A DNA stretch of 64,000 nt from Methylohalobius crimeensis 10Ki (GTDB taxonomy: Bacteria; Pseudomonadota; Gammaproteobacteria; Methylococcales; Methylothermaceae). The notes under the pieces were generated by a model. That model did no database searches and had not been told where the DNA came from. It worked only from the letters and a program-made list of their open reading frames with translations. Positions 35,337-39,856 of this stretch are shown here, piece by piece. The translations under genes and the position numbers were made by a program. Location: positions 496,001 to 560,000 of the forward strand of contig NZ_ATXB01000001.1 of NCBI RefSeq assembly GCF_000421465.1. Reading direction: 5' to 3'. Position 1 is the stretch's first letter, and every line of letters begins with the position of its first letter.

Positions 35337-36881
35337 GTGCTGGCCGGTTATCGGGCCCAATTGTTCCAGGCGCTGATTGCAGGTGCCTTGCTTCCTTTCG
35401 CTTTCGCCCCCTATGGCCAGTCATGGCTGGCGCCTCTGGTTTTGGCCTGGCTTTTCCATCTGATATGGCGGCAGACGCCTTGCCCGCGTCGGGCGTTCGC
35501 CCTGGGCTATCTATTCGGCCTGGGGCAATTCGGGGTCGGGGTTTGGTGGGTGTATGTGAGCATGCATCGATACAGCGGCGCCGGGGTTGCGGCGGCGGGC
35601 GGGTTGACGGTGCTGCTGGTCGCCTTTCTCGCCTTGTATCCGGCCGTGGCGAGCGCGTTCACCGGTTGGTTGTTCAAGCGCAACGCAAAGGGCTGGGAAG
35701 CCGACCCCGCGAACTGGCGGCCGATGTTGGTCTTGCCGTCCATATGGATTGGGGTGGAATGGTTGCGAGGATGGCTGTTGACCGGTTTTCCCTGGCTCGA
35801 GGTGGGCTACAGCCAGATCGATGCCCCCCTGGCCGGATTCGCGCCCTTGGTGGGGGAATACGGAACCGGCTGGCTGACCGTGCTGACCGCCGCAGTGCTG
35901 TGGGCGATTTGGCGCGCGAAAGCTCTCCCAACGCAAAATCGCCAAGCGGGCCATTGGGTCGCGGTGGCGGTAATCCTCTGGCTGGCGGGGGCGGGTTTCA
36001 AAGCCGTTCCTTGGACCCAACCCGCCGGCGATCCTTTTCGAGTCGCTCTCCTTCAGGGCGATATTTCCCAAGATCTCAAGTGGCGGCCGGAGACCCGAAG
36101 GCGGATTTTGGCCGCCTATCTGGACATGACCCGCCGGAACTGGGGGGCGGATTTGATCGTCTGGCCGGAGACCGCCGTGCCGGCGTTTTATCATCAAGTT
36201 CGGGAAGGATTGTTCCTGCCTCTGGAGCGGGAAGCCGCAGCTCGGGGAAGCGATTTGCTCGTCGGCGTGCCGATGCTGGAATCGGCGACGGATCGTTACT
36301 ACAACGCCTTGATCGGTCTGGGCGAGGCATCCGGACGTTACTATAAGCGGCATTTGGTGCCGTTCGGGGAGTTTTTGCCCTTGCGTTCGCTTTTGGGGTT
36401 CATTCTGGAGGTGCTCCAAATTCCCCTGTCCGACTTCAGTGCCGGCGACGACGATCAAGCATTGATCGTAGCGGCCGGTTTTCCGGTGGCGGCGACCATC
36501 TGCTACGAGGATGCCTTCGCCCGCGACGCCTTGGTGGGACTGCCGGAGGCCGCCTACATGGTCAATGTCAGCAACGACGCTTGGTTCGGCGATACGATCG
36601 CGCCCCATCAGCACCTGCAAATGGCCAGAATGCGGGCATTGGAAGGGGGGCGCTATTTGCTCCGCGCCACCAACACCGGGATCACCGCAGTGATCGATTC
36701 AAGGGGGAAGGTGAAGGCGCAGGCGGCTTCTTTCGTTCGGACTTCCTTGACGGAAACCATCGTTCCCTTGGCCGGAGCGACCCCCTATGTGATTTGGGGC
36801 GATTGGCCATTGTGGCTGGGGATGTTGGGAATCTTGGGTTGGGTGGTGTTCGATCGAAAGAAGGGCAATGCAACCGAATAG
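35337..36881 (+). CDS. lnt: Apolipoprotein N-acyltransferase
   Basis: A 514-residue inner-membrane enzyme that adds the third acyl chain to lipoproteins. N-terminal TM segments (residues ~1-215) precede a periplasmic nitrilase-like domain with the catalytic triad E278 (WPETAVP), K337 (YYKRHLVPFGE) and C389 (ICYED); the E. coli triad is E267, K335, C387. A final TM segment ends the protein. Start GTG 35337 is chosen because GGAGG lies 7 nt upstream and the ybeX stop is adjacent. The end of the gene is followed by repeat material. Confidence 0.95.
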   Translation: MLAGYRAQLFQALIAGALLPFAFAPYGQSWLAPLVLAWLFHLIWRQTPCPRRAFALGYLFGLGQFGVGVWWVYVSMHRYSGAGVAAAGGLTVLLVAFLALYPAVASAFTGWLFKRNAKGWEADPANWRPMLVLPSIWIGVEWLRGWLLTGFPWLEVGYSQIDAPLAGFAPLVGEYGTGWLTVLTAAVLWAIWRAKALPTQNRQAGHWVAVAVILWLAGAGFKAVPWTQPAGDPFRVALLQGDISQDLKWRPETRRRILAAYLDMTRRNWGADLIVWPETAVPAFYHQVREGLFLPLEREAAARGSDLLVGVPMLESATDRYYNALIGLGEASGRYYKRHLVPFGEFLPLRSLLGFILEVLQIPLSDFSAGDDDQALIVAAGFPVAATICYEDAFARDALVGLPEAAYMVNVSNDAWFGDTIAPHQHLQMARMRALEGGRYLLRATNTGITAVIDSRGKVKAQAASFVRTSLTETIVPLAGATPYVIWGDWPLWLGMLGILGWVVFDRKKGNATE

Positions 36882-37123
36882 ATGGGGTTCTGTTTTTTGA
36901 TACCACCCTCCTCACCCCGACCCTTGTATGTTTTGTGACAGACTCGTTCGGAAAGAGTGTCGCACAAAAGTATGGGTCCCCTTCTCCCTCTTGGAGGGAG
37001 AAGGTTAGGATGAGGGTGGATCTAATTGAAATAAAAGGTATTTTGTGATTTAAACCACCCTCACCCTGGCCCTCTCCCGCCAGCGGGAGAGGGAGATAGG
37101 AGGGTTTGTGAAACGTCTGCGGA
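36882..37123. repeat. Intergenic repeat region with element E2 (copy of E1 interior)
   Basis: A 242-nt gap between convergent lnt and mtd genes. Bases 36998-37036 repeat the E1 block at 16601-16639 almost exactly (GAGAAGGTTRGGATGAGGGT, then GGATCTAATTGAAAT). A palindrome CCCTCTCCCGC-CA-GCGGGAGAGGG lies at 37070-37093. A degenerate left part includes a second dyad near 36981-37002. The terminal inverted repeats of E1 are decayed here. No gene is present. Confidence 0.7.
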
Positions 37124-38029
37124 TTACACCAATCTCCGGGCCCGGGTGAAGGCTTCCCGGAAGTCGAAGTACACGTGTTCTTCGGTGCGGAGAAGATCCC
37201 GCAGCATGGCGTTCTGAAGCTTGTATTTGATGCCGCCCACGGCCAGGGGGCCGACGCTCACCGCATCGGGGCTGTTGGGCGTGGTGGACAGGGGAGCGCC
37301 CATGTCCTTCGCTTTCACGCCTTCGACTCCCGCCGGCGGGACGGCGTTGACGTCTCCGACCACTTTCAGCCGGGTGGTATCTTCGAGCATTTCCTTATCC
37401 AATACCTGGATGCCGGCCTTGGTGGTATTGAAGAGGATGTCGGCGCGGTTGACCAGCCACGACTTGCTGGCGCCGGAACTGGAAAAAGTGCCTTTCAGAT
37501 GGCAGCCGCAGCGACGGCTGTATTCCGCGGCGGTCTGCATGGCGGTGTCCAGGCTCAAATGGTCCACCAGGGTTACGTCGGCCCCGGCCAGGGAGGCGAT
37601 GACCCCGGTGGAGATGCCCACCGGTCCGGTGCCGCCGAAAACAACTGCCCGGCAGTCTTTCATTTCCAGGTCGTGTTTTTCCTTGAGCTGCTTCTCCACC
37701 GAGGCGACCAAGGCGGTGGCGGTGGTGAAGGCGCCGGAAGGATCGGCCAGAACCGATACCTCGAACGGCGGGACCATGGCTTTCTTGACGGTTTCCATCA
37801 TATCCAGGGCGATACCGATGTCGCGGCCACCGATGAAAATAGCGGTTTCCTTCACTCCCTTGGGTACGCGGGAAAAGATGATGTCCTGGGTCAGGCCGTA
37901 AACCTGGTCCGGCGACACGTTGGCGTGGGGGAAAATCATGTCGAAGCCCGCGTCCACCGCCATGTTGATGTCGAAGGGGCTGACTTGGGGGCGGGGGCTT
38001 AACATGTGGAGTACGGTTCGGGTGGTCAT
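37124..38029 (-). CDS. Methylene-H4MPT dehydrogenase family paralogue (MtdB/MtdC-like)
   Basis: A 301-residue protein of the methylotroph Mtd family. Shared family blocks are MLSPRPQVSPFDINMAVDAG, PPFEVSVLADPSGAFTTATA, the Rossmann loop GGTGPVGIS and DVNAVPPAGVEGV. After the second Rossmann strand it reads TLVDHLSLD, with an Asp where NADP enzymes have Gly-Arg, suggesting NAD preference. Compared with the neighbour upstream it is the more divergent copy. It lies 21 nt after that gene and is probably cotranscribed. It may be a second dehydrogenase (MtdC type), an isoenzyme or a pterin-related enzyme; the reaction is inferred. Confidence 0.8.
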   Translation of the reverse strand: MTTRTVLHMLSPRPQVSPFDINMAVDAGFDMIFPHANVSPDQVYGLTQDIIFSRVPKGVKETAIFIGGRDIGIALDMMETVKKAMVPPFEVSVLADPSGAFTTATALVASVEKQLKEKHDLEMKDCRAVVFGGTGPVGISTGVIASLAGADVTLVDHLSLDTAMQTAAEYSRRCGCHLKGTFSSSGASKSWLVNRADILFNTTKAGIQVLDKEMLEDTTRLKVVGDVNAVPPAGVEGVKAKDMGAPLSTTPNSPDAVSVGPLAVGGIKYKLQNAMLRDLLRTEEHVYFDFREAFTRARRLV

Positions 38030-38050
38030 GAATCGTTAGCCTCGTGGAAA

Positions 38051-38959
38051 TTAGCGTTTGGACTGGATGAAATCGCGGGCGACGGCAAAGGCCTGATCGT
38101 AATGGAGATAAACCGGCTTGTCGGTTTCGCGCATCTGCTTCAGAAGCCGGTGATGGGCCTGATATTTGACGTTGCCGATGGCAAGCGCGCCGATGCCCAC
38201 GGCACCGCCGGAAGAACCCGGAATGGCTGCGCCGTCCGCCATCGCATCGATGCCGGCGATCCCGGCGGGGGGGACGGCGTTGACGTCGGCGGCGACCTTC
38301 AGATGGGGGGCGGCGGCGACCTGATCGGCGCTCAGCAATTGGATGCCGGCGGCACCGGTGGCGAAGATGAGATCGGCTTCGGGAAGCAAGGAATCCAACC
38401 GGTCGTTGCCTTCACCGCCGATCGAGGTCTTCCCTTCGCCGAAGCATTCATTGCAAAGTTTGGCGATGCGTTCGGATTTTTCTTTTTGCCGCCCCATGAT
38501 GGTGACCTCGCAACCGGCCTTGGCGCATAGGACGGCGGCGATTTGTCCCACCGGACCGGTACCGGCGAGAATCAACACGCGTTTGCCGGCCAGTTCGGTA
38601 TCGAATTTGTCGGCCAGCTCGCGCTCGGCGGCGGCCACCATCGCCGCGGCGGTGGTGAAAGCACCCGACGGGTCGGCGAGCACGGAGATTTCAAACGGCG
38701 GCACCATGGCGCCTTGGGCGCTTTGGAGCATCTTGACCGCCATTTCCGGATCGCGTCCGCCGATGAAAGCGGCGGTCCGCTTGACCCCTTTGGGACCACG
38801 CGAGAAGATCGAGTCTTGGATGAGATTTTGGACTTCGTCTTCGGCCACGTTCAAATACGGCATCGTCACTTGCCAGCCGGCATCTTGCGCCATGTTGACG
38901 TCGAAAGGGCTTAAGTTCTTTTCGGTGGTGATCATGTGCAAGATATAGGGTTTTTCCAT
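38051..38959 (-). CDS. mtdB: NAD(P)-dependent methylene-tetrahydromethanopterin dehydrogenase MtdB
   Basis: A 302-residue dehydrogenase oxidising methylene-H4MPT to methenyl-H4MPT in formaldehyde oxidation. It matches Methylobacterium MtdB in FDVNMAQDAG, VPPFEISVLADPSGAFTTAA, DVNAVPPAGIAGID and VGIGALAIGNVKYQ. The Rossmann loop is AGTGPVGQI, and the second strand ends in MGRQKEKSER, the Gly-Arg pattern that MtdA uses for NADP. The ATG at 38959 is preferred (AAGGG about 10 nt upstream; MEKPYILHM fits the family start) over an upstream ATG at 39031. It is divergent from a RibD-like gene. Confidence 0.9.
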   Translation of the reverse strand: MEKPYILHMITTEKNLSPFDVNMAQDAGWQVTMPYLNVAEDEVQNLIQDSIFSRGPKGVKRTAAFIGGRDPEMAVKMLQSAQGAMVPPFEISVLADPSGAFTTAAAMVAAAERELADKFDTELAGKRVLILAGTGPVGQIAAVLCAKAGCEVTIMGRQKEKSERIAKLCNECFGEGKTSIGGEGNDRLDSLLPEADLIFATGAAGIQLLSADQVAAAPHLKVAADVNAVPPAGIAGIDAMADGAAIPGSSGGAVGIGALAIGNVKYQAHHRLLKQMRETDKPVYLHYDQAFAVARDFIQSKR

Positions 38960-39019
38960 GAGCTCGGCCCTTGTTTCTGTTACGTTTAAAGATATTTCTT
39001 CAATTATTACGTGGCAGCT

Positions 39020-39856
39020 ATGCAAAAACAAATTTTTTGCCTTTACCCGCCACCGTTCAGCGAAGTCCCGCTGAAGGGTTTATATCTCGGTCATCGCCTG
39101 TTCGAATTGGGGCTATCGGGGCGTCCTCGCCCTTTCGTGTATGCCAATTTTCTCGCCAGCCTCGACGGCCGCATCGCTTTGGAGGACATGCGCACCGGTC
39201 AGCCCTATTTGCCCAAGAGTTTGACCACGCCGGCGGATTTCCGTCTGTTCCTGGAGTTGGAGGCCCAGGCCGATTGTCTCATCACCCACGGCGGCTATCT
39301 GCGCGCATTGGCCGAAGGCACCCTGGGCAACATTCTCCAACTGGGAGCGCATCCGGCGGGCGAGGATTTGGTCGCCTGGCGCCAGTCCCAAGGACTGAAG
39401 CCTCAACCGGCGATCGCCATCGCCAGCGGCAGCCTGGATTTCGTGATTCCCGAGTCGGTACGGATACATCATCAGCCCGTCTACCTCTTTACCGGCGAAG
39501 GGGCCGATCCGGTCCGGGTCGAAGCCTGGCGCAAGGAGGGCTATCCGGTGATTTTCGCCGGTTCCGGCCGTTTGGTGGAAGGCCGGCGTTTGATTTCGAT
39601 CCTGGGGCAATTGGGGTATCGTAGCATTTATCTGATTGCCGGTCCCGCCATGCTGGATACCGTCCTGCGCAGCGGCCAATTGGATCGATTATATCAAACC
39701 ATCACCCATCAGCTCATGGGGGGCGAGGCATTTCGGACCATGTTGCCGGGACCGGAGTTGGGGCTGATCGGCCATCTCCGCTTGCGTTCCCTCTACTACG
39801 ATCCGGCCGGTCCCGGCGGAGCGGGGCAATGGTTCGCCCAGTTCGACAGTCAGTAA
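39020..39856 (+). CDS. RibD C-terminal-domain (DHFR-fold) reductase
   Basis: A 278-residue protein with the RibD_C reductase fold: RPFVYANFLASLDGRIALED near residue 30 and late LIAGPAMLDTVLRSGQLDRL and YQTITHQLMGGEAFRTML. It lacks the zinc deaminase half of RibD. Divergent placement from mtdB suggests a role in H4MPT biosynthesis or reduction; DmrA, the methylotroph dihydromethanopterin reductase, has the related DHFR fold. This is inference; a riboflavin-pathway reductase is the alternative. GTG 39011 is an alternative start; neither has a strong ribosome site. The 3' end overlaps the next gene on the other strand by 7 nt. Confidence 0.75.
   Translation: MQKQIFCLYPPPFSEVPLKGLYLGHRLFELGLSGRPRPFVYANFLASLDGRIALEDMRTGQPYLPKSLTTPADFRLFLELEAQADCLITHGGYLRALAEGTLGNILQLGAHPAGEDLVAWRQSQGLKPQPAIAIASGSLDFVIPESVRIHHQPVYLFTGEGADPVRVEAWRKEGYPVIFAGSGRLVEGRRLISILGQLGYRSIYLIAGPAMLDTVLRSGQLDRLYQTITHQLMGGEAFRTMLPGPELGLIGHLRLRSLYYDPAGPGGAGQWFAQFDSQ

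Follow-up and report, generated by a model that had tools for sequence, protein, structure and literature searches.

Adjacent MtdB-kind genes with NADP-type and NAD-type signatures in a probable methane oxidiser and many of its relatives

In the 64,000-nucleotide stretch of Methylohalobius crimeensis DNA that was analysed (the window), we found that two adjacent genes encoding methylene-H4MPT dehydrogenases of the MtdB kind carry opposite cofactor signatures, and this signature pair occurs across the host's order and is no peculiarity of the one genome. Judging from the protein sequences, it is highly probable that the upstream gene (U) yields NADPH and the downstream gene (D) yields NADH from methylene-H4MPT, so that the same carbon step would be carried out with opposite cofactor preference. 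As a gene predicted to yield NADPH and one predicted to yield NADH lie side by side in the host and in many relatives, these microbes may set the balance of their reducing power at this step. The features of the pair are as follows, in window positions.

38051..38959, minus strand: gene U, MtdB-kind methylene-H4MPT dehydrogenase, predicted NADP-type, 302 aa from ATG (open reading frame, Mpt_N, model)
38489..38494, minus strand: codons Gly156-Arg157 of U, NADP-type signature, then a loop one residue shorter (sequence, model strand, 38/38 in clade)
38030..38050, minus strand: U-D intergenic gap, 21 bp, from the U stop to the D start (open reading frame coordinates)
37124..38029, minus strand: gene D, MtdB-kind methylene-H4MPT dehydrogenase, predicted NAD-type, 301 aa (open reading frame, Mpt_N, model)
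37559..37564, minus strand: codons Asp156-His157 of D, NAD-type signature (sequence, model strand, Asp in 52/53 in clade)

Both proteins contain the Mpt_N domain (PF09176) above the Pfam cut-off of 27 bits (E 4.6e-33 for U and 1.3e-36 for D), which bears out the tandem Mtd genes claimed in a preliminary description of this DNA. In NCBIfam, no family was found above cut-off for either protein (0 families for D, and 21 for U, all below it). The sequence matches among solved structures, three each for U and D, were all MtdA. The structural models had a mean pLDDT of 94.2 for U (alignment of 28 sequences) and 93.4 for D (alignment of 29 sequences), and the best fold match was MtdA in both cases, namely 6tlk_A for U (Z 40.2, rmsd 1.7, 286 aligned) and 1lu9_A for D (Z 40.4, rmsd 1.7, 287 aligned). 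Across both models, the MtdA structures 6tlk and 1lu9 gave Z of 40.0-40.4 and rmsd of 1.6-1.9 over 284-287 residues, and the next family followed at Z of about 20.

The two proteins share 42% identity. U is 49-58% identical to betaproteobacterial-type MtdB from 19 loci, one of them partial, whereas identity to M. extorquens MtdA is 33% for U and 34% for D; judged by sequence identity, U is an MtdB. Among 72 Mtd proteins, 30 columns have the same residue in 95% or more of the sequences, and both U and D keep all of these, including Asp20, Asp96, Thr102-103, Asp225/226, Asn227/228, and Lys265/268. Against four Methylothermaceae relatives, the dN of U and D was 0.10-0.20 and the dS 0.73-1.92 (NG86), the several dS values above 1 being rough; dN far below dS speaks for selection on both genes.

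The 21-bp gap suggests that U and D are carried on one transcript. A promoter scan of 36850-39200 returned one match, inside D, with 0.8 expected by chance, and none before U; the promoter and terminator scans gave chance-level matches only. Just after D, at 37070-37093, lies an inverted repeat whose 11-base arms pair perfectly around a spacer of 2 bases (CCCTCTCCCGC-CA-GCGGGAGAGGG), which is the single match found to such a pattern in the window and is possibly a dispersed intergenic repeat.

By the established rule for Rossmann dehydrogenases, the NAD type has an Asp at the strand end, which contacts the hydroxyls of the ribose, whereas in the NADP type a Gly or Ser with Arg next to it accommodates and binds the 2'-phosphate. 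The second Rossmann strand comprises residues 151-156 in both models, which places the signature at the strand end, within the peptides VTIMGRQKEKS in U and VTLVDHLSLDT in D; the motifs quoted in the preliminary description, MGRQKEK and VDHLSLD, are indeed found there. The loop after the strand is shorter by one residue in U than in D and other MtdB, a length common to MtdA, which has Gly-Arg at residues 151-152 (position counted on from the alignment) and is labelled NADP-dependent in its PDB entry.

The distribution of these residues was evaluated in 151 rows, obtained from 157 aligned rows minus six near-identical ones; rows below 240 aa (the partial genes L070 D, L077 D, and L078), matches below 80 bits, and loci that duplicate the host genome (L001, L002, L003, and L088) had been left out. 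Gly-Arg and the short loop are present in all 38 rows of the U clade, and the short loop also in all 25 MtdA rows, with Ser-Arg in 17 and Gly-Arg in 8; the combination of Arg and short loop occurs in 0/88 of the remaining rows. The 53 rows of the D clade have Asp-His (43), Asp-Pro (9), or Ser-His (1), none with the short loop, and Asp156, found in 52/53 of them, occurs in 0/98 of the remaining rows. The sole D-clade protein with Ser at the strand end belongs to locus L024 (34-936), at a contig edge. The other MtdB (35 rows) comprise Ser-His (17), Gly-His (7), Gly-Tyr (3), Ala-His (2), His-His (2), Ser-Ser (2), Thr-His (1), and Ser-Arg (1), again with no short loop. The signature is thus not a matter of chance, given 38/38 and 52/53 in the two clades as compared to no Asp and one Arg in the 35 other MtdB.

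We consider it rather unlikely that both genes encode ordinary MtdB that use NAD as well as NADP and are kept in two copies for dosage or growth conditions, with the signature being of little effect. Such dual use has a precedent, since M. extorquens has an MtdB that can work with NAD or NADP and an MtdA that acts with NADP, as stated in passages of two papers (PMC2991311, PMC3227643). The MtdB of L116 and L117 has VGHDG (Gly-His) at this site; it comes from two genomes in which MtdA shares 98% identity with the solved chain from M. extorquens. However, pure dosage would not preserve opposite decisive residues in 38/38 and 52/53 proteins, with Asp in 0/35 of the other MtdB, and the NAD(P)-linked activity in M. 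capsulatus, whose Texas strain has both genes (L017), would be explained equally well by U and D acting together. The strand-end residue is a predictor of cofactor preference, not of exclusivity. The division of NADP and NAD use between the genes, as proposed in the preliminary description, stands as a prediction, favoured by the strand-end residue, the MtdA-like loop length, the conservation across the order, and the Gly-His in M. extorquens-type MtdB.

The genome collection contained 75 loci encoding a relative of D. In 37 of them U precedes D, and in 15 it is an MtdA-like gene that precedes D; a further 20 show a single MtdB in the available sequence, and 3 have a D-like gene alone. The 37 U-D pairs are each on the same strand, with gaps of 18-709 nt (median 49). 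Of the three loci with D-like genes alone, two start at the edge of a contig (L024 and L051), and the third (L073, Hyphomicrobium, alphaproteobacterial) falls outside the D clade. An Arg-type partner was found just upstream of D in 52/52 loci with the upstream sequence covered (37 U and 15 MtdA-like). All 50 full-length D proteins with the upstream gene covered have Asp; the remaining two of the 52 are L070, which is partial with Asp seen, and L077, which is cut before the site.

A Mpt_N match was found in 277/301 genomes of the host's order, three per genome being common among the matches listed; 24 genomes had no such match, and 17 of the 20 listed are members of a single family (f6). With U as the query, at E up to 1e-15, we searched four genomes that had shown few matches (G056, G076, G171, and G175), all at least 98% complete. 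G056 has both U and D. G171 (99% complete) has an MtdA-type gene as well as D, and no U match was obtained at this threshold in G171 or in the genome of L024 (1.3 Mb), where the query matched nothing besides L024 itself; as D is at a contig start in both, loss and an assembly gap are indistinguishable. G076 and G175 (98% complete) gave one match each to the U query, of MtdA type by signature, and neither U nor D was found in them. These two loci (L138 in G175 and L139 in G076) come from assemblies of 520 and 280 contigs, and MtdB loss or assembly gaps may account for them. The U-D pair is widespread in the order; its universality is not claimed.

The pair is kept far more widely than its neighbour genes. 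The genes phoH, ybeY, lnt, and a close corC lie beside it in only four Methylothermaceae relatives among the 75 loci, many of which have little flanking DNA; a corC-like match of 27% is also present in L024. A gene for a RibD_C protein (PF01872, window 39011-39856) is divergent from U and accompanies U in the four Methylothermaceae relatives and L027 as well.

Two other arrangements of the family were observed. Loci of the Methylophaga type (L036 4068-8019 and L052 4065-8038) have MtdA-like, GHMP-kinase-like, D, and ATP-grasp genes in succession, with Pfam names taken from L036 only; the combination of an MtdA-like protein (Ser-Arg) with a D-type MtdB is an apparently separate pairing of Arg type and Asp type. 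The Paraburkholderia caribensis MBA4 plasmid has two MtdB-like genes about 200 kb apart (L125 1501-2391 and L124 1501-2397), with Ser-Ser and Ser-His.

The host genome has two AMO/PmoA-family genes, three Fae, one Mch, and one PntB, and the AMO/PmoA, Fae, and Mch genes make it look like a methane oxidiser with an H4MPT route. Its nearest named relatives are Methylothermaceae MAGs, whose D is 82-85% identical. A third Mpt_N gene, at about 2.04 Mb of the own genome (G000 C1), shares 58% identity with the MtdA of M. extorquens and is arranged head to head with an FTCD_C gene of the Fch type. High identity and a place beside fch, the two marks of MtdA, are both found in this third gene and in neither U nor D; the divergent neighbour of U encodes the RibD_C protein, not fch. 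U can be ruled out as the host's MtdA, since the true one sits at this other locus and U is only 33% identical to the M. extorquens protein.

Three trees were built: one of the 151 rows, a second of 63 chosen proteins with the signature columns removed, and a third of 72 rows with MtdA. U formed one clade (SH-aLRT 100 with 151 proteins and 98 with 63), as did D together with the Methylophaga MtdB (100 and 100). U grouped weakly (90 and 85) with a mixed, mostly betaproteobacterial set of MtdB, the group labels being loose, as L092 (labelled 'alpha') and L123 from Thiodictyon (labelled 'beta') are of the class Gammaproteobacteria. Of the phylogeny that the preliminary description called for, the trees of 151 and 63 proteins place U and D among proteobacterial MtdB, but U and MtdA on one side of a branch were not rejected (p-AU 0.517, the held tree being 0.12 log units better) in the 72 rows without signature columns, where the MtdA branch is very long. 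In the 151-row tree, the length of this branch is 2.6.

The p-AU of 0.517 lends something to the view that one gene, most likely U, has another substrate, such as the methylene-tetrahydrofolate that MtdA can use, or is MtdC-like, as does the fact that Arg and the short loop are common to U and MtdA. On this comparison with MtdA and MtdB sequences, we nevertheless regard that as very improbable, because U is far closer to betaproteobacterial-type MtdB than to MtdA in the identities given above, and because the true MtdA is found elsewhere, beside its FTCD_C gene.

The term "paralogues" used in the preliminary description is not borne out in the sense of a tandem duplication, as U groups weakly with betaproteobacterial MtdB and D with Methylophaga MtdB. 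A recent event of this kind is unsupported, given the identity of 42% between the two proteins and their separate clades across the order. A deeper single origin may apply, since U and D constrained to one clade were not rejected (p-AU 0.345, 63 rows). On the sequences at hand, the pair may have arisen by a duplication within the Gammaproteobacteria followed by divergence of U and D, two MtdB of different descent may have been brought together, or U may branch near MtdA and have retained the NADP signature.

In the reading that we prefer, both U and D would convert methylene-H4MPT to methenyl-H4MPT. U would bind NADP, with Arg157 and the shortened loop holding the 2'-phosphate, and D would bind NAD, with Asp156 taking the free ribose hydroxyls and repelling a phosphate. 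Formaldehyde would enter the pathway on H4MPT, and its hydride would pass via U to NADP or via D to NAD, so that the split between NADPH for biosynthesis and NADH for respiration would be set by the amounts of the enzymes or by the free cofactors. The third enzyme, the true MtdA encoded beside the Fch-type gene, would serve the tetrahydrofolate branch. In this arrangement, methylene- and methenyl-H4MPT would link the pools of NADH and NADPH, a coupling that would have to be kept in check or would be put to use. The PntB transhydrogenase is another possible route between NADH and NADPH, which counts against the split.

A related but unlikely role for the pair is that of a soluble pterin-linked transhydrogenase, which would move hydride between the NAD and NADP pools via H4MPT. 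One enzyme would then use NADP to oxidise methylene-H4MPT and the other would use NADH to reduce methenyl-H4MPT, or the two roles would be exchanged, perhaps in mixed oligomers, with net formaldehyde oxidation setting the direction.

If the division of cofactors between U and D is true, the pair would be a genetic valve for the choice between NADPH and NADH that many gammaproteobacterial methanotrophs share, and the single reaction with either cofactor that some models assign to "mtdB" would need to be split in two. The source of NADPH versus NADH in methanotrophs bears on metabolic models and engineering. We found no paper on a cofactor-split MtdB pair in the literature under open licence, to the extent that its texts were accessible; most subscription journals are outside this scope, and the absence is unproven.

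Compared with known systems, U and D are like the M. extorquens-type MtdB in family, length, conserved residues, and place in the tree among proteobacterial MtdB. In contrast, the M. extorquens type is described as a dual-cofactor enzyme and has Gly-His in close relatives, whereas here there are separate Gly-Arg and Asp-His genes, which suggests two specialised enzymes as against one of dual use in other lineages. MtdA, an NADP-dependent enzyme acting on methylene-H4MPT and methylene-H4F, has the same fold (Z of about 40) and shares its Arg and short loop with U, while D has neither; the low identity of both proteins to it and the presence of the host's MtdA as a third gene set the pair apart. 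The planctomycete MtdC catalyses the same H4MPT reaction and, if its use of NADP holds, would resemble U; a passage of PMC3505017 describes it as a separate group. Two mtdB per genome are already in print for Methylocaldum strains, which have these genes in separate orthologue groups and one mtdA each, and thus the same gene count as here; the passage concerned (PMC10974252) is silent on cofactor signatures and tandem order.
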